Positions 25,534-33,082 of a stretch of DNA of 64,000 bases are shown one piece after another (the stretch's first letter is position 1; each line of letters opens with the position of its first letter). The position numbers and the translations under genes were made by a program. Under the pieces are notes generated by a model. The model saw only the letters and a list, made by a program, of their open reading frames with translations. It searched no databases and had not been told where the DNA came from. The stretch is from the NCBI RefSeq assembly GCF_000305775.1, contig NC_018866.1, positions 2,437,001 through 2,501,000 of the forward strand, read 5' to 3'. Origin of the DNA: Dehalobacter sp. DCA. Lineage in GTDB: Bacteria > Bacillota > Desulfitobacteriia > Desulfitobacteriales > Syntrophobotulaceae.

Positions 25534-26955
25534 GTGTTTAATAAATATGGTTTCCAAAAAATAACTCCCCTAAACGGTTTTGATACAGATCCCAATAATG
25601 CCATGCAAAACAACTATGCCTGGTCAATGGCTGAGCTGGGAGACTATCTCTATGTAGGAACGGGAAGAAATATTCTCTATAACATTCTCCTGGCTGTCCA
25701 AAATACTGGAATACTCGGGGATTTCAAAATCCCGAGGGAGCTGACACCTAAGATTGTCGATAACCGGGCAGAAATCTGGCGTTATAACAAGGCACTTCCC
25801 CATGCCGGTTGGCAGAAGGTCTTTAAAGCCCCGGATGATTCCAATATCATTCAGGGTTTCCGGTATATGATCCGTTATACGGATGCCAACGGTCAAACAG
25901 CGCTTTATGTGGGAGGGTATTGTCAGGGTAAGGTAAGGACATTTCGTTCGACAGATGGATTGAACTGGCTTGAGATACCGAATGATAACCTTAAAGGTAC
26001 TTCAACGAGGGCGATGGTGATTCATACCAACGGAAAACTCTATATGTCCGCTGTCGATGAGGCCTCTCCAATTCAACCCGCTGTAATTTACGAATATATC
26101 CCACCTGACATTCTATTTCCAAATGGCAGATGGGAACCGGTTACAGCAGATCCAAGCAACCCCTTATTTATCCAAGGGAAAAACCCAAGCGGGCAAGTCA
26201 TGATGATGGCGAGCTTTAAAGGTCATCTCTATGCCGCTACCACGAATCTGGCGGAAGGATTTGAACTTTGGAAAACGGAAGGCGCCGAACCGAAAATGAA
26301 TGAATGGAAATTGGTCATCGACAAGGGTGCCGGTGATGCGCTTAATATTATTCCCTTAACCCTAGGAATATTTAGAGATTATTTATATGTCGGGGCCATC
26401 ATGTTCCCCCTGCTTGCAGAGCAGCCTATGAATCTCTCGGCCTTCAAACCGTTTGATGTCGTTCGAATTGATGCGCAGGATCATTGGCAGCTGGTCATCG
26501 GGGGTAAGCCGAAAAAGCCTACCAACCCAACCACGGGAACACGCGGCAAAGCTTTAAGCCATAAACCCTCAGGTTTGGGAAATCCCTTTAATTTATACTG
26601 CTGGCAGCTGGAAGAATACAATGGTGAGTTCTTCTTAGGCACATTTGACTGGTCTGTACTCCTTAAACCACTTGTCCCCGCTATCATTCCTTCATTATTA
26701 AACCTGCCAAAGTTATTTGAGGAACTTCTTAAAATCGTGCTTAGCGTGCTGCTCGCTGTAGGCGACGCCCTCTATCCATTTGAAGGATTCGACTTGTATA
26801 AGTCCAAGGATGGGATCCATTGGGTTCCGATTACCTTAAACGGTCTCGGAAATAAGCATAATTATGGTGCAAGGCTTTTATTCAAATCCATCAACGGACA
26901 TTTGAATTTAGGAACAGCCAACCCGTTTGATGGGTGTGAAGTTTGGAAAAAGTGA
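25534..26955 (+). CDS. large propeller-like protein of unknown function
   Basis: A 473-residue protein without a signal peptide. Repeated strands of the form LYVGT...FELWK occur at about residues 35, 125, 165, 230, 280, 355 and 450 (YLYVGTGRN, ALYVGGYCQG, LYAATTNLAEGFELWK, FFLGTFDW, LNLGTANPFDGCEVWKK), and FRSTDGLNWLEI / YKSKDGIHWVPI recur, which suggests a 6- or 7-bladed propeller. A hydrophobic insertion (about residues 375-415) is unusual for the fold and could be a membrane helix. It starts at GTG behind GGGAGG. No enzyme class can be assigned. Confidence 0.7.
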   Translation: MFNKYGFQKITPLNGFDTDPNNAMQNNYAWSMAELGDYLYVGTGRNILYNILLAVQNTGILGDFKIPRELTPKIVDNRAEIWRYNKALPHAGWQKVFKAPDDSNIIQGFRYMIRYTDANGQTALYVGGYCQGKVRTFRSTDGLNWLEIPNDNLKGTSTRAMVIHTNGKLYMSAVDEASPIQPAVIYEYIPPDILFPNGRWEPVTADPSNPLFIQGKNPSGQVMMMASFKGHLYAATTNLAEGFELWKTEGAEPKMNEWKLVIDKGAGDALNIIPLTLGIFRDYLYVGAIMFPLLAEQPMNLSAFKPFDVVRIDAQDHWQLVIGGKPKKPTNPTTGTRGKALSHKPSGLGNPFNLYCWQLEEYNGEFFLGTFDWSVLLKPLVPAIIPSLLNLPKLFEELLKIVLSVLLAVGDALYPFEGFDLYKSKDGIHWVPITLNGLGNKHNYGARLLFKSINGHLNLGTANPFDGCEVWKK

Positions 26956-26970
26956 ATTGAATGTAAATTG

Positions 26971-26993
26971 AATGGAATGGAATGGAATGGAAT
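26971..26993. repeat. 5-base tandem repeat (AATGG)n
   Basis: Four AATGG units and a variant AATTG, between the stop of the propeller gene and the terminator. Probably replication slippage. Confidence 0.7.
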
Positions 26994-27000
26994 TGATATC

Positions 27001-27029
27001 AAAAATGGCCTGTTTTACAGGCCATTTTT
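27001..27029. terminator. bidirectional terminator between convergent genes
   Basis: Perfect 13-bp stem AAAAATGGCCTGT / ACAGGCCATTTTT with a 3-base loop and U-runs both ways. The stem covers the last codons of the minus-strand GMC gene. Confidence 0.85.
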
Positions 27030-28307
27030 GTCAATGATGATTTTACTGACCCTCTTCGCCATCGCCATGATCGTTAAAATCGGCGGATTCCCCAAAGGCT
27101 CGGGGAACAGCGTTGCATCAGCTACATACAGGTTCTCGGGCAGCCTGGGACTGTGGAATGTCCCGGCTTCGTTTGCGGTAAGCGGCAGCATGCCGCCGGG
27201 GTGTCCGGCATTGATCGTTCCCAGGAAAATAGTATCCTTTTTTATCCCGTACCTGGCAAGGATCTCTATGCAGAGTCCAACTTCCTCCCGCAATCTTTCC
27301 TGATCTATATCGCTCAGCGTTTTCCTGATGTTTTTGTTATCAACCGTTCCGGCGCTTGAATCCGCCAGCTTGATCATCAGGGATACGATATCCTGGGCAG
27401 GATACCGCCAGCTAGGATGAAAGAAAAAGCTCAGATAATCAAAATAAGGGGATAAAATAGCATGCTCCCTCTGTACGGCAAAGGGCATCGAAAGCTCTTT
27501 GTTCTGAAGACTTCCCTTTTGCCGGGCAGCCACGCAGAGAACGGGATCAACGAACAGCCTGCTTTCGCATTCGATCCCCGAGTTCTGAAGAATGACGGGG
27601 GTTGAAAATCCGCCTGCCGCCAGGATTACAAGATCCGCCGGGTAAAATACGGTGTTGAAGCCTTTTTGGGCCTGAACCCCTTTTACGAGACCCTTTTCCA
27701 TAACGAGCTTCACTACCTGACAGCCTGTGATGAGCTCCGCACCCAAATCCTGTGCAGCGTTCAGAAATTGACGGCTGTCCCATTTTACATGATACCGGCA
27801 GCCCAGGACACACCTCCCGCAGCCGGTACAGCGCTGATAATTACCCAGTTTGGGCAAAGGCACAGGATTCAGGCCCATTTCCGTGCATATTTCAAACAGC
27901 TTTTTGGTGGAATTCCGCCATTTGGGCCGATGGTCATTGGTGACTGGGATCTCCCGGTAAAGCTCTTCAAATTCATCATCCAGATCAATGCCAAGATCCT
28001 TAAGCCCTTTGTCCATACGCAGGGCATTTCCTGCTGAAAGCGTGGTCGTCCCGCCTAAGCCCTTCCCGCTGACCATCACCATGCTGTCCGGGGTTTTCTT
28101 GACGCTCATCGACGGAAACAGCAGTTGTATTTCCCTCTCATCGAAGAACAGTCCGGTTTTTCTTAGCTTTTCCAGAACAGATAAATTGATAGAAAACGGC
28201 TTGAATTCCCGACCTGCCTCCAGGACTGTCACCTGAAATTTCCCCTGCAGTTTCTTGGCCGCGGCAGCCCCTCCCGCACCGCTGCCGACGACGATTACCC
28301 TTTTCAT
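27015..28307 (-). CDS. GMC-type FAD oxidoreductase with 4Fe-4S motif
   Basis: A 430-residue FAD-dependent oxidoreductase of the GMC superfamily. The dinucleotide-binding motif VVGSGAGGAAAAKKL is at residues 6-20, GKGLGGTTTLSAGNA (about 81-95) is the GMC signature, and the C-terminal NPPILTIMAMAKRV closes the FAD fold. Unlike sugar or alcohol oxidases it has CTGCGRCVLGC at 160-170, a CxxCxxCxxxC pattern for a 4Fe-4S cluster, so electrons probably go to a carrier and not to oxygen. It is last in an operon with radical SAM, membrane and ATC-hydrolase-like genes. Substrate unknown. Confidence 0.85.
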   Translation of the reverse strand: MKRVIVVGSGAGGAAAAKKLQGKFQVTVLEAGREFKPFSINLSVLEKLRKTGLFFDEREIQLLFPSMSVKKTPDSMVMVSGKGLGGTTTLSAGNALRMDKGLKDLGIDLDDEFEELYREIPVTNDHRPKWRNSTKKLFEICTEMGLNPVPLPKLGNYQRCTGCGRCVLGCRYHVKWDSRQFLNAAQDLGAELITGCQVVKLVMEKGLVKGVQAQKGFNTVFYPADLVILAAGGFSTPVILQNSGIECESRLFVDPVLCVAARQKGSLQNKELSMPFAVQREHAILSPYFDYLSFFFHPSWRYPAQDIVSLMIKLADSSAGTVDNKNIRKTLSDIDQERLREEVGLCIEILARYGIKKDTIFLGTINAGHPGGMLPLTANEAGTFHSPRLPENLYVADATLFPEPLGNPPILTIMAMAKRVSKIIIDKNGL

Positions 28308-28331
28308 GTTGAACCATCCTTACTTTTTTAC

Positions 28332-28865
28332 CTAAAGTTCCCTTTGAAAATATCCTTTACAGCATTCATTGCCTTCCGTGATCCTGTGCTGGAAACACAG
28401 CCTGCCGCCGCCTGAAAGCCCTGCGGCCAGCCCTTCATCCAGCGCAGAAATCAGTTTGCAGACTTCCCCGGAATAATAACTGCTGAAATAGCACTGCCGG
28501 ATGATGATTCCCCCCTGCTGGTCACATTGAAGATCAATGCCGATCAACTGATAGATCACCTTCAAGGCCGTAACAGCCTCTTCCCAGGTTCCGATATGCA
28601 GGGTTTTTCTCAAGTTCCGTCCGAATCGATAAGCATTTTGGTACAGCCGCTGTTTGACTTGTTCAACGGGGCGTCCGCTCTGTAAATGATTTTCCGCTTG
28701 TTCCTTGGTAAATAAAGCGTATTGCGGGAGAAGCGCAGCCGAAGAAAGCCCCTTTAGCTCCGGCGGCTCACTTTGGAAAGCATCCGCCGTCAAGCGGAAC
28801 AATTCCTTCAGTTTTTTCCTCTTGATCCATTCTGGCAGACAAAACTGGATGATTTTTAAAAGCAT
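28332..28865 (-). CDS. protein resembling L-2-amino-thiazoline-4-carboxylate hydrolase family
   Basis: A 177-residue soluble protein. The second half has the layout of ATC-hydrolase-like proteins: RQCYFSSYYSGEVCKLISAL followed by GGRLCFQHRITEGNECCKGY, with conserved Cys, His and the (R/K)xxEGxxxC ending. The catalytic assignment in that family is weak, so no reaction should be assumed. It lies between the GMC and membrane-protein genes (24 and 37 bases apart), in one operon headed by the radical SAM enzyme. GGGAG precedes the ATG. Confidence 0.55.
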   Translation of the reverse strand: MLLKIIQFCLPEWIKRKKLKELFRLTADAFQSEPPELKGLSSAALLPQYALFTKEQAENHLQSGRPVEQVKQRLYQNAYRFGRNLRKTLHIGTWEEAVTALKVIYQLIGIDLQCDQQGGIIIRQCYFSSYYSGEVCKLISALDEGLAAGLSGGGRLCFQHRITEGNECCKGYFQREL

Positions 28866-28902
28866 TGCAACTCCCTGTTTTTTTCAGTCTTAGCAAAAGG
28901 CG

Positions 28903-29319
28903 CTAAGCATTACCGCTAAGCCCGGTTTTCCTAATTTTTAGGTAAAAATACAGTGCCGCTAAGCCAATCAACCCGTCAACAACGAAGTTGGCCAAAAAAA
29001 TCAGGTAGGGCCGGTAAATGAAAAATAGAAACAGAGAAAGGATGGAAGATGCCAGTTTGGCATGGGTCAATAAAAACGGATAGATGTGCTGCACCGGATT
29101 TCGATACATCAAGATGGCAAGTAAAGTAACAAGATACATATAAGCAACTGCCAGTGCCAGATAAAACCCGACGCCTTCTAATGGAGCTTCGGGCAGTCCA
29201 AAATAACCGGAAATACGGTTAAAGAATATCAGGGCCGCATCAGGGAAAAACAGAAAAATCAGACCTACCACGGCAAATATTCCTGCTGCAATCAAGCTAA
29301 ACAGTTTATACAAGCTCAT
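28903..29319 (-). CDS. four-helix membrane protein
   Basis: A 138-residue membrane protein with four predicted helices (about 8-28, 48-68, 85-105, 107-127) and no charged loops of size. It resembles small uncharacterised DoxX-like or DUF-type membrane proteins but no signature is clear. Its start is preceded by GGGGG, the last unit of the 14-nt repeat that separates it from the radical SAM gene. Confidence 0.65.
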   Translation of the reverse strand: MSLYKLFSLIAAGIFAVVGLIFLFFPDAALIFFNRISGYFGLPEAPLEGVGFYLALAVAYMYLVTLLAILMYRNPVQHIYPFLLTHAKLASSILSLFLFFIYRPYLIFLANFVVDGLIGLAALYFYLKIRKTGLSGNA

Positions 29320-29327
29320 AACCTATA

Positions 29328-29453
29328 CCCCCATAACCCTATCCCTATTACTTCATTCCTACCTCTTCATCCCAATGATTTGATCCCTATAGCTTCATCC
29401 CTATAGCTTCACTCCAATCATTTCACTTCCACGGCTTTATTCCGATAGCCTTA
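29328..29453 (-). repeat. nine-unit degenerate 14-nt tandem repeat
   Basis: Read on the minus strand, nine consecutive 14-mers fill the gap between the radical SAM stop and the next gene; the most regular unit is TGAAGCTATAGGGA, present twice in a row, with variants such as TCAAATCATTGGGA and TGAAGTAATAGGGA. Nearly every unit starts with a TRA-like triplet and ends in a purine block like a ribosome binding site. The first unit contains the TAA stop of the radical SAM gene. Confidence 0.75.
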
Positions 29454-30644
29454 CCCCTTATAATACAGCCGGAAAAATTCGGACAGCGGACTGAACCGGA
29501 CTTCCTTCATCATCTTCAACGTATCTTCTTTGCTAAGGGGCGATTGCCCTTTATTATATTTCTTCAGCAACGCATAGTTCTTGTTCATAAAGCAGCAGCT
29601 TTCCGACGGAAAATGTGCTTTCATCTCCGAGAAAACGGCTTGCAGCGATTTATCCCGGACATTGCCGAAGGTTATCGGTATGAACACACACGGGCTAACC
29701 TCGCCAAAGGCATCGATATAGACCATTTTATGGCCTGCATTGCAGCCAAAATGCTCTCCTCCTTCAAAATGCCCAAGATAATTCACCGTGATTTTTCTCT
29801 CTCGATTGTATTTATCCTGCAAGTGCACAAGGCTTAAACGTTCTTCTTCGGTAAGGACTGCGGCCTCATGCCAAAAAGCCTCCACTGTTGGCTTGGTTTC
29901 ACTCAGCCATGCTTCATCGATCCCAAGGCCGATCAGGAACGCCAGAAATTTCTCAACCTGATTTTCCCGAAGCATCTCCCTGGAGATGACCGTCGATACA
30001 CTGACATGAGCGCCTGTGCCTTTAAATATTTCGATCGCTTGAAGCGCTGCCCGGAAAGCCCCATGGCATCCTCTGATTCGGTCATGTTCTTCCTCCTGCC
30101 AGTGGTCCAGGCTGATCGAGACATAGCAAAGACCCGCCCGCTTCAGCTCCGCCGCCAGCTCTTGCGTAATGCCCATGCCTGTGGTAAACAGCTTAACGGC
30201 GCAATCATCTCCGGCGCTTTGGACGATCTCTACGAGATCTTTGTTCATAAGTGGCTCCCCGCCGGTAAAACCCAGCCAGAAGACACCCATTTTCTTCAGA
30301 TCCTGAATGAGCTGCTTGATTTCTGCCGTATTGAGAAGCTCCCCGCTCCGGTTCTTGTTGTAACAATAGGCACAATGCTGAGGACAGGCATCGGTCAGGC
30401 TAATTTGGGCATGGGAGGGCCCCTCCGTCCTTGCCAGAAGGTGCTCATTGATAAAGCGGGTAAAGGCTTTGCTGTTTACCGGGGGCAAATGGGAATGAAG
30501 GACCAGCTGCCCACCGACATTCAGCAAACGGAACTTCCCCATGTATTTCATCAGGAACCAATTGATTGAAGGTTTGACCCTGATGATTTGCTTGTTTGCC
30601 CATAGCGATCTGGCTAAGGCAATCTTATTGTTGAATTCAGACAT
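29451..30644 (-). CDS. radical SAM protein with SPASM/twitch-like C-terminus
   Basis: A 397-residue radical S-adenosylmethionine enzyme. The cluster motif CPQHCAYC (Cys87, 91, 94; CxxxCxxC) is followed by GFTGGEPLMN and the usual barrel. The C-terminal region has GCNAGHKMVYIDAFGEVSPC and a later ESCCF, a reduced SPASM/twitch arrangement for an auxiliary Fe-S cluster. About 75 residues precede the barrel, as in peptide- or cofactor-maturing members. No precursor-peptide gene is visible next to it. It heads an operon ending in an Fe-S GMC oxidoreductase, which invites comparison with mycofactocin-type clusters. Substrate unknown. Confidence 0.88.
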   Translation of the reverse strand: MSEFNNKIALARSLWANKQIIRVKPSINWFLMKYMGKFRLLNVGGQLVLHSHLPPVNSKAFTRFINEHLLARTEGPSHAQISLTDACPQHCAYCYNKNRSGELLNTAEIKQLIQDLKKMGVFWLGFTGGEPLMNKDLVEIVQSAGDDCAVKLFTTGMGITQELAAELKRAGLCYVSISLDHWQEEEHDRIRGCHGAFRAALQAIEIFKGTGAHVSVSTVISREMLRENQVEKFLAFLIGLGIDEAWLSETKPTVEAFWHEAAVLTEEERLSLVHLQDKYNRERKITVNYLGHFEGGEHFGCNAGHKMVYIDAFGEVSPCVFIPITFGNVRDKSLQAVFSEMKAHFPSESCCFMNKNYALLKKYNKGQSPLSKEDTLKMMKEVRFSPLSEFFRLYYKG

Positions 30645-30801: not shown

Positions 30802-30825
30802 AAAAAATGCGCCTGGAACGGCGCA
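30802..30825 (-). terminator. terminator after the rubredoxin-like gene
   Basis: On the minus strand TGCGCC / GGCGCA form a stem followed by six T, 20 bases past the stop at 30845. A second hairpin (AAATCCAC...GTGGATTTTT, about 30769-30797) points the other way. Confidence 0.7.
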
Positions 30826-30844: not shown

Positions 30845-31174
30845 TTACCACTTGCCTCGTCCAACATGGCCTGCGATTTCTGCTTTGCTTCTTTGTTTGA
30901 TGACCCAGGCCTCGTCATGAGCTTGTTTAAACAAAGCAACGCATGGCGGGTCAAGATTGATTTCAATGCCTTCTTTTGCTAAATCTTTTATTCTCATCGC
31001 TAATTTGATGATTTCCATGTGGATGTCATTGGTCCGGTCTGAATCCAGGATCTTTTTGGCATCTTCTTCAGATAAGACGTTGAATTTCTCCTTTGGCGCC
31101 CCACATTTCGGACAAAAATCGGGGGCCGCGCTTCCCTCATGAACGTAACCACAAACAGAACATTTCCATAACAT
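30845..31174 (-). CDS. rubredoxin-domain protein
   Basis: A 109-residue protein with an N-terminal rubredoxin-like iron site: CSVCGYVHEG at residues 5-14 and CPKCGAPKEK at 21-30 (two CxxCG knuckles). The remaining 75 residues are helical (NDIHMEIIKLAMRIKDLAKE, CVALFKQAHDEAW) and of unknown role. The rubredoxin part is very similar to the N-terminus of the FAD reductase encoded just upstream, so the two probably work in one electron path. AGGAGG precedes the ATG. Confidence 0.82.
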   Translation of the reverse strand: MLWKCSVCGYVHEGSAAPDFCPKCGAPKEKFNVLSEEDAKKILDSDRTNDIHMEIIKLAMRIKDLAKEGIEINLDPPCVALFKQAHDEAWVIKQRSKAEIAGHVGRGKW

Positions 31175-31282
31175 AGTTATTTCCTCCTATTTTTTATTTT
31201 TTGTTTTATCTTCTTTATGTTTCCTGAACTGAGTTCAGATGTAAGGAGCTTTCTCTATAATCCAACGGGTTTAAAAGGGCTT

Positions 31283-33082
31283 TCAAGTATTTTTAACCGG
31301 TTCGGCCACCGCATGGATCCCTGCAATATGGCCGAAAGTCATTGCGGGGCCGATGGTGCTTCCCGCACCCCAATAGGCATTGGCTGTCGGTGAAGCAATG
31401 CAGTTTCCCGCGCCATAAAGACCTGGGATTGGATTCCCACGAACATCCAGGACTTGGGCACGACTGTCAATGACGGGTCCGCCATTGGTATCCAGTGTCC
31501 CCGCTCCAAGGATAACCGCATAGTACGGCCCATGATCACTTAGCGGATACATACAATAATTCCGACTTCCTTCCGGAGGCCAAGGGGCGCCGGGAACCGT
31601 CGGCGGAAATGTTGTCCATTCCCTGTCATACGTGTATTCTCCCCGATGGAAATCCTCATCTTTGCCGTTTTTGGCAAATTCATTAAAACGGGTCACCGTA
31701 TTTTTTAAGTTTTCCAGAAAATCAGGGGCCAGTCCAAAGCTCCCGGTATGTTCGGCTAATGCCGACAACCGCTGAGATAATGATCGCGTGAGCTCCTCCA
31801 GCGTAGACCCTGAAATGATATAGGAAGGAAGCGCATTGCTTTGAAGCGGGTACGGCGGAAATCCCTGCCATAATTCAGCCGTCCTCTGGTCATAAATCAT
31901 AAACACCAGCATGTTTGTCCATTCCGCACGCTGAGGGTCCCAAACGAAGTGGGTCATGGTCCGATCCGTATAATTTCTTTTTTCATCCATGATGCGTTTG
32001 CCATAACGGTTGACTTCAATGACACTGTCACCGGGAATATAAAATACGTTATTCGAACCTCCAGGATAGGCAAGGGCATTTTCCAATATACTTTCTGCTC
32101 GGAAAGCACCGGCCATATTACCGAGCTTGGCACCGATTTCCACTGACATCGTAATGAAGTCGCCGGTATTCGTCGGTGCGGAGCAGCCGCCAAAGTGAGG
32201 CCCCCGCTGGAAATGAAGCATGAGTTCCGGGTTGTGGGAATAACCTCCGCTGCCAAAAATAGCTGCCTTGCGCGCTCTGAACCTGATGATTTCTTTTCCT
32301 CCCCTGACAACTTCCAGCCCAACCACTTCTTTCCGGTCGTTCTGCAGGATATGGATAACCTGATGATCCGTCATGATCTTTATCCCATTTGCTTTCGCCC
32401 AATCCTCCAGTTGTCTGATCAGTTCAAAGCCGTAACTCATCTTGCCTTCGGGATTTTTTGCGTACAAAACGCGTCCCCGGACTCCTTTGTTTTCCGGAAG
32501 ATGATCCATATAATCCACCTGGGGTTTACCTGTCCAGTTGATTTCCTGAATGCTGCTCAGGGCACCGCATTCAGCTAGAAACTCTACTGTCTCCGACGCT
32601 CTGTCAACCATTGCTTCGATCAGTTCATACGCGTTCTGCGGGATCCCTAACCTGAAATCCTTTGGGTTGTACAGATGAGGATAGGAATATCGTGCCATAT
32701 AGCGAAGTGCATCCTCTTTTTTATCTTCAATCCCCCGTTCACGTTGAAACCGATTGTTTGGCGTCCAATAACCGCCCCCCGACCGAATGGTCGTTCCACC
32801 GATTGAAGACGCTTTTTCCAGCATGATAACACTGGCTCCCTGCTTTCTTGCAGTGATTGCTGCAGAAAATGCAGCCGCACCGCTTCCCACGATAAGAATA
32901 TCTGCTTCATCATCAAAGGTAGACGATCTCGTGAACGGAAGGCTATTCAAGCCATGAGCATCTTGACCAGGATCAGCAAGTAATTGAAATTTCTCCTTTG
33001 GCGCACCGCACATGGGACATTTTTCTGGTGGTTCAGCCCCCTCATGGACGTATCCACAGACAGTACAAATCCATTTTTTCAT
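31283..33082 (-). CDS. rubredoxin-fused flavoprotein reductase (fumarate reductase/ketosteroid dehydrogenase type)
   Basis: A 599-residue fusion. Residues 1-35 are a rubredoxin knuckle domain (CTVCGYVHEGAEPPEKCPMCG). Residues 60-595 are an FAD_binding_2 flavoprotein with DILIVGSGAAAFSAAITARK, SSIGGTTIRSGGGYW and the C-terminal GLYGAGNCIASPTANAYWG and GSTIGPAMTFG segments, as in 3-ketosteroid dehydrogenases, urocanate and fumarate reductases. It probably reduces (or dehydrogenates) an activated C=C bond, with electrons through the rubredoxin. Desulfitobacterium-type genomes hold many such proteins. There is no signal peptide, so it is cytoplasmic. The substrate is unknown. Confidence 0.88.
   Translation of the reverse strand: MKKWICTVCGYVHEGAEPPEKCPMCGAPKEKFQLLADPGQDAHGLNSLPFTRSSTFDDEADILIVGSGAAAFSAAITARKQGASVIMLEKASSIGGTTIRSGGGYWTPNNRFQRERGIEDKKEDALRYMARYSYPHLYNPKDFRLGIPQNAYELIEAMVDRASETVEFLAECGALSSIQEINWTGKPQVDYMDHLPENKGVRGRVLYAKNPEGKMSYGFELIRQLEDWAKANGIKIMTDHQVIHILQNDRKEVVGLEVVRGGKEIIRFRARKAAIFGSGGYSHNPELMLHFQRGPHFGGCSAPTNTGDFITMSVEIGAKLGNMAGAFRAESILENALAYPGGSNNVFYIPGDSVIEVNRYGKRIMDEKRNYTDRTMTHFVWDPQRAEWTNMLVFMIYDQRTAELWQGFPPYPLQSNALPSYIISGSTLEELTRSLSQRLSALAEHTGSFGLAPDFLENLKNTVTRFNEFAKNGKDEDFHRGEYTYDREWTTFPPTVPGAPWPPEGSRNYCMYPLSDHGPYYAVILGAGTLDTNGGPVIDSRAQVLDVRGNPIPGLYGAGNCIASPTANAYWGAGSTIGPAMTFGHIAGIHAVAEPVKNT

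Follow-up and report, generated by a model that had tools for sequence, protein, structure and literature searches.

The 64,000 nt stretch of Dehalobacter sp. DCA analysed here (NC_018866.1, positions 2,437,001 to 2,501,000; hereafter the window) contains, between 30644 and 27015 on its minus strand, four co-directional genes that form one cassette, probably translationally coupled, which is real and is conserved well beyond this genus. The genes encode a radical S-adenosylmethionine (SAM) enzyme (gene 1), a small membrane protein (gene 2), a protein with a predicted V4R/Bet3 fold (gene 3) and a GMC-superfamily flavoprotein (gene 4), and their order and cofactor motifs are conserved along with them. 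A sequence-only reading of the window had proposed an unrecognised operon here, a proposal that would fall if the four genes did not stay together in other genomes; a check of the open reading frames (ORFs) of the window recovered all four, the same order recurs in 28 loci from about ten bacterial phyla, and no description of the unit was found in the open-access literature searched.

Conservation and spread of the cassette

As these 28 loci keep all four genes in order whilst their flanks are unrelated, the grouping is not due to chance. With the radical SAM enzyme as anchor, a scan of GTDB species genomes gave 22 true relatives with 51-66% identity together with one generic match (L053). In 20 of these relatives tblastn found all four proteins encoded on one strand with the order unchanged, a count that includes L051, which begins inside gene 1. 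At L039 the edge of the contig falls inside gene 3, and at L047 (7992-9392) gene 2 is missing and a truncated gene 1 continues into gene 3, which is either a deletion or an error in a metagenome-assembled genome (MAG). Two further scans, one of 82 genomes from the phylum of a KSB1 genome anchored on the GMC protein and one of 247 genomes from the phylum of an Aminicenantes genome anchored on the V4R protein, added four complete cassettes (L111, L112, L113 and L116), one that is cut at the start of its contig (L114) and one variant (L115/L117).

In most loci the reading frames of genes 2 and 3, and of genes 3 and 4, overlap, typically by 4 bp, whereas the gaps in Dehalobacter are mostly wider (131 bp between genes 1 and 2, 37 bp between 2 and 3 and 24 bp between 3 and 4 in the window). 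The first of these gaps (29320-29450) is full of degenerate short repeats (GGGATGAAG..ATAGGGAT); outside Dehalobacter it is at most about 25 bp, or the genes overlap. The four proteins also seem to have a shared history, their pairwise distances being correlated (Spearman 0.69-0.82), with none of 999 permutations as high as the observed correlation for each pairing of the radical SAM enzyme with another cassette protein. A quick tree of the joined proteins, in which some branches are long, places the Spirochaete cassettes inside a group of KSB1 and other cassettes (97 and 99% support by the Shimodaira-Hasegawa-like approximate likelihood ratio test). This placement is compatible with transfer of the whole cassette, but given the nature of the tree it is suggestive only.

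Within the genus the cassette is present in genomes G000 (that of the window, 3,069,953 bp in a single contig), G001, G002 and G004 and is absent from G003, and between most of the four carriers the flanking genes are unlike. Among the other hosts, those with names are assigned to KSB1, Caldithrix, Spirochaetes, Aminicenantes, Atribacteria, Acidobacteria, Bacteroidetes, Kryptoniota, Dehalococcoidales, Chrysiogenales, Syntrophomonas and Clostridia and are all MAGs, and the carriers as a whole are mostly uncultured anaerobes. The cassette is rare: when 398 genomes sampled evenly from the window's phylum were scanned, GMC matches of cassette strength came only from Dehalobacter and a single further genome (G382). 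No family in the flanks of the cassette loci recurs as a fifth member would; there the only families common to at least four loci were of histidine-kinase/regulator and ABC type, with no fixed position. No account of the gene combination was found in the open-access literature, most subscription papers lying outside the search, and the main text of papers on Dehalobacter functional genomics does not mention the cassette genes.

The carrier phyla seemed to overlap with the known mercury methylators. A link with mercury methylation was rejected, since hgcA exceeds its cut-off in no more than 7 of 27 genomes, and among these 7 is G003, which has no cassette. The window's own genome does encode an HgcA corrinoid protein (498 bits; G000:C1:1139954-1140919), which is unlinked to the cassette.

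The radical SAM and GMC enzymes

The core of gene 1 matches PF04055 at 80.7 bits against a cut-off of 29.5, and its C-terminus matches the SPASM family PF13186 at 29.2 bits against 21.5, which identifies an auxiliary-cluster domain. Six cysteines (C87, C91, C94, C301, C319 and C351) and an N-terminal HSHLP motif are invariant in all 21 orthologues. The sequence-only reading had called the protein SPASM-like, a label that holds in so far as PF13186 exceeds its cut-off; twitch/SPASM-like is the better name because only three C-terminal cysteines are conserved, for which reason there is probably one auxiliary cluster and not two. None of the named radical SAM families among the NCBIfam models comes near its cut-off for the window protein, the best match in the PDB is the sactipeptide maturase SkfB, and a search for close solved relatives of either this enzyme or the GMC protein returned generic superfamily members only.

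Gene 4 is a member of the GMC superfamily by its match to PF00732 (74.5 bits against a cut-off of 23), with the C-terminal domain PF05199 scoring below cut-off (18.7 of 24.6). The cysteines C160, C163, C166 and C170 and the residue His369 are invariant in all 22 orthologues, 18 of which also have Asn407. From the CxxCxxCxxxC spacing we infer a cubane cluster, and Fer4 matches below threshold cover residues 156-174. A GMC protein with a similar cysteine-rich motif is also found in Photobacterium sp. DA100 of the Vibrionaceae (L118:5683-6999), where there is no cassette and the context is uninformative.

A radical SAM enzyme beside a GMC flavoprotein resembles the pair MftC and MftG, and the sequence-only reading had remarked that the genes recall mycofactocin and yet differ from it, which proved correct. 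The MftC model TIGR03962 scores 89.2 bits against a cut-off of 265 and the MftG-type models score 45 of 400 (TIGR04542) and 38 of 387 (TIGR03970), so that membership of that system was rejected. It could still be supposed that the cassette makes a redox cofactor or natural product from a ribosomally synthesised and post-translationally modified peptide (RiPP), much as mycofactocin is made, with the precursor encoded elsewhere in the genome, and that PqqE and MftC are among the NCBIfam models matched by gene 1, with SkfB as its best structural match, would fit such a product. Against it are the scores, which lie far below the curated cut-offs, the failure of any of the four proteins to match a PqqD/RRE-type peptide-binding family in Pfam, and the want of a linked precursor; the sequence-only reading had seen none with the four genes, and across the cassette loci no small ORF within 1.5 kb, MftA-like or otherwise, is common beyond close relatives. 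A search for MftB gave no match in 25 cassette genomes, with the control silent too, and one for the creatininase-like protease MftE gave nothing over cut-off. We consider a RiPP product decidedly unlikely.

The V4R-type protein and the membrane protein

Gene 3 had been labelled ATC-hydrolase-like, and a relation to that family stands, since PF14196 matches are found in 15 of 20 orthologues (best E 3.2e-4). The match of the window protein is weak, at 13.0 bits against a gathering cut-off of 28.1 (E 0.18), and a V4R-type protein that binds a ligand, whether or not it also acts as a hydrolase, is the better reading, to judge from a structure model built from the 20 orthologues (its predicted local distance difference test score, pLDDT, is in Table 1). 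The top Foldseek matches of this model are all TRAPP/V4R proteins, the best being palmitate-bound TRAPPC3/Bet3 (E 2.9e-4; VIA Z 11.6, root-mean-square deviation 3.0 Å over 140 residues); the phenol sensors DmpR, MopR and PoxR follow at VIA Z of about 10-10.8, and MJ1460, an archaeal protein of the vinyl-4-reductase family, is matched as well. A V4R/Bet3 fold is thus predicted for gene 3. The ligands of V4R domains are believed to be hydrophobic (PMC2253512), and the V4R, HNOB and ATC_hydrolase domains have been grouped together, with a cluster of three conserved cysteines reported for V4R and ATC_hydrolase (PMC5847659).

Gene 2 matches no family in Pfam or NCBIfam and is predicted to be a four-helix membrane protein. 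TLC-domain matches occur in only 2 of 23 members (best E 2e-4), and matches to tetraspanin, VKOR, EBP and other four-helix proteins are all within the range expected of helical bundles. Its orthologues have no conserved set of cysteines or histidines fit for a metal centre.

A variant locus and the proposed role

In one genome (G757) from the phylum of the KSB1 genome G447, a variant locus (L117:155-5127) has V4R and GMC genes without a radical SAM or membrane gene. Its GMC protein is 40% identical to that of the window and has the same four cysteines, whilst its V4R/ATC_hydrolase protein passes the cut-off for PF14196 (36.9 bits), its alignment to that family having a probability of 99.5%. 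Because the other two genes are missing, the V4R and GMC proteins may, to go by gene content, be a core that functions without them. In a row with the two genes lies one for a 939 amino acid (aa) fusion of a thioester-reductase domain (NAD_binding_4) with an AMP-binding acyl ligase, the best matches of which are fatty-acid ligases and carboxylic acid reductase, below the cut-offs of those models. Such an acyl-adenylating and thioester-reducing neighbour points to an acyl chain or another hydrophobic molecule as substrate.

The variant bears on a further explanation, namely that the cassette is a module for sensing or electron transfer in which the V4R protein would sense a hydrophobic or redox signal, the GMC protein would pass electrons to a membrane partner and the radical SAM enzyme would modify another cassette protein. 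The operon does include a membrane protein, many signalling proteins have V4R domains (PMC2253512) and a V4R regulator of a methanogen is reportedly modulated by cysteines (PMC3729527). We regard it as very unlikely all the same, since in L117 the V4R and GMC genes occur without the other two, Pfam finds no regulator, kinase or DNA-binding domain in the cassette, and gene 2 lacks the conserved residues for a metal centre.

More distant, second-tier relatives of the radical SAM enzyme have an N-terminal extension in common with it, in the form of a PPxPSxAF-like motif. In the window's phylum one of them (L074:7102-16322) lies beside two ketosynthases, a Polyketide_cyc/lipid-transport protein, a 3beta-HSD-like protein and two Caroten_synth proteins, a cluster that resembles an undescribed lipid or polyketide pathway. 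Others adjoin paired UbiE-like methyltransferases (L075, L088 and L089) or alpha/beta-hydrolase or lipase-like proteins (L090 and L091); with L090 included, relatives near one or two UbiE-like methyltransferases come both from the window's phylum and from the group of the Spirochaete genome G455. The contexts are mixed, yet they lean towards hydrophobic small molecules.

A hydrophobic ligand might also be a ring, and the cassette could then modify a tetrapyrrole or an aromatic or quinone-type compound, with gene 3 as a BchJ-like carrier, the ring itself or a side chain as the target of the radical SAM enzyme and a side-chain alcohol as that of the GMC enzyme. For the V4R protein BchJ a chaperone role in bacteriochlorophyll synthesis has been proposed (PMC7242693), phenol sensors are among the fold matches of gene 3, and the nearest NCBIfam models for gene 1 include NirJ2, AhbD and AhbC of haem synthesis. 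These haem-type matches are however generic, scoring about 90-110 bits where the cut-offs are 500-650, the flanks of the cassette show no recurrent tetrapyrrole or quinone gene, and the acyl-activating enzyme of L117 would not be expected, so that a ring substrate seems unlikely.

The V4R/Bet3 fold and the acyl-activating neighbour in KSB1 favour a lipid or other hydrophobic molecule over a peptide-derived cofactor, and it is because the second-tier contexts, the membrane protein and the V4R fold are taken together that a lipid-like substrate is our best guess. We tentatively suggest, giving it somewhat less than an even chance, that the cassette carries out an O2-independent modification of a hydrophobic small molecule, probably acyl-chain-like or lipid-like, at the membrane. 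The V4R/Bet3-fold protein would bind and present this substrate, perhaps with a metal or a thioester at its three invariant cysteines, and the radical SAM enzyme, with an auxiliary cluster on C301, C319 and C351, would use a 5'-deoxyadenosyl radical to functionalise an unactivated C-H bond. The GMC enzyme would then oxidise or reduce an alcohol or carbonyl group by hydride transfer at its flavin adenine dinucleotide (FAD), with His369 and usually Asn407 taking part, and electrons would leave singly through the CxxCxxCxxxC cluster in place of O2. The four-helix protein may anchor the complex or take up the product.

Several observations weigh against a lipid-like substrate and this scheme. The second-tier contexts are heterogeneous, one relative (in L076) lying beside B12-type radical SAM genes, and the acyl-activating neighbour is found in a single variant locus that itself lacks genes 1 and 2. 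As V4R folds also bind phenols and, probably in the case of BchJ, tetrapyrroles, the ligand could be aromatic. The fold matches of gene 2 are not decisive (best Foldseek E 1.2, VIA Z at most 11.2 for a helical bundle), and Asn407 is replaced in 4 of the 22 GMC orthologues.

A strict set of four genes kept across deep phyla of anaerobes, for which no description was found, argues for a pathway and not a chance cluster. It is possible, if rather doubtful as yet, that this is an undescribed anaerobic pathway of about ten phyla that builds a new modified lipid or lipid-soluble redox carrier, in which an iron-sulphur (Fe-S) cluster replaces O2 as the electron acceptor of a GMC enzyme. Should the product prove to be a membrane lipid or a lipid-soluble electron carrier of a new kind, it would be relevant to O2-free oxidations in strict anaerobes, including the dechlorinating bacteria used for clean-up, and might provide a biomarker for the uncultured groups that carry the cassette. 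As the cultured Dehalobacter restrictus PER-K23 has the cassette, its chemistry is open to direct search.

Layout of the cassette and its surroundings

Table 1. Features of the four-gene cassette, in window coordinates
Feature	Position	Strand	Support
Gene 1: radical SAM enzyme, 397 aa, with twitch/SPASM-like C-terminal cluster domain and N-terminal extension	29451..30644	-	
Gene 1 CxxxCxxC (C87, C91, C94), putative SAM-binding [4Fe-4S] site	30363..30386	-	21/21 orthologues
Gene 1 C301-x12-G-x4-C319...C351, presumed auxiliary cluster	29592..29744	-	21/21 orthologues; PF13186 over cut-off
Gene 2: four-helix membrane protein (predicted), 138 aa, without known family	28903..29319	-	model pLDDT 91
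Gene 3: V4R/Bet3-fold protein (predicted), 177 aa, divergent relative of ATC_hydrolase PF14196	28332..28865	-	model pLDDT 93.4
Gene 3 invariant cysteines C125, C136, C169	28359..28493	-	20/20 orthologues
Gene 4: GMC-superfamily flavoprotein, 430 aa	27015..28307	-	PF00732 E 1.4e-20
Gene 4 CxxCxxCxxxC (C160, C163, C166, C170), presumed [4Fe-4S] site	27798..27830	-	22/22 orthologues
Terminator-like hairpin and T-run between upstream rubredoxin-like ORF and gene 1	30808..30825	-	hairpin scan

The hairpin upstream of gene 1 is a possible limit of the four-gene unit, weak evidence in that 7 such sites were found where shuffled sequences gave an expectation of 5.2. Beyond it (30845-33082) lie a rubredoxin-like ORF of 109 aa and a 599 aa flavoprotein (FAD_binding_2, ketosteroid-dehydrogenase-like) that itself carries a rubredoxin domain at its N-terminus; this pair is also near the cassette in G004, several kb off. 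Directly downstream of gene 4, between convergent genes, there are short ATTCC-type repeats (26950-27014), next to which a 473 aa ORF with a GTG start (25534-26955) has no Pfam or NCBIfam match at E 1.

Comparison with known systems

The V4R/ATC_hydrolase proteins (PF02830/PF14196), such as BchJ, DmpR/MopR/PoxR and Bet3 of TRAPP, share with gene 3 the same predicted fold and three conserved cysteines. Gene 3 differs from them in that it stands alone, has about 7-18% identity to the solved structures and is tied one to one to its radical SAM and GMC partners. Acyl activation of the carboxylic acid reductase type (NAD_binding_4 with AMP-binding) adjoins the V4R and GMC genes in L117; such an enzyme is absent from the four-gene cassette and is present where the radical SAM enzyme and membrane protein are absent.

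With the GMC oxidoreductases of cholesterol oxidase type (PF00732/PF05199) gene 4 has in common the FAD fold and an invariant histidine of catalytic type, usually followed by the asparagine, but it is shorter (about 430 aa), has the invariant CxxCxxCxxxC motif and occurs in anaerobes. Mycofactocin (MftA-F, MftG) likewise has a radical SAM/SPASM enzyme and a GMC flavoprotein in one neighbourhood, and there too the GMC protein probably hands on electrons without O2. No MftA-like precursor and no MftB, MftE or MftF was seen alongside the cassette, both of its enzymes are far below the family cut-offs, and it has instead a four-cysteine motif on the GMC protein together with V4R and four-helix membrane proteins. 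It is by its partners and by its Fe-S-type GMC enzyme that the cassette differs from the radical SAM cassettes described to date.

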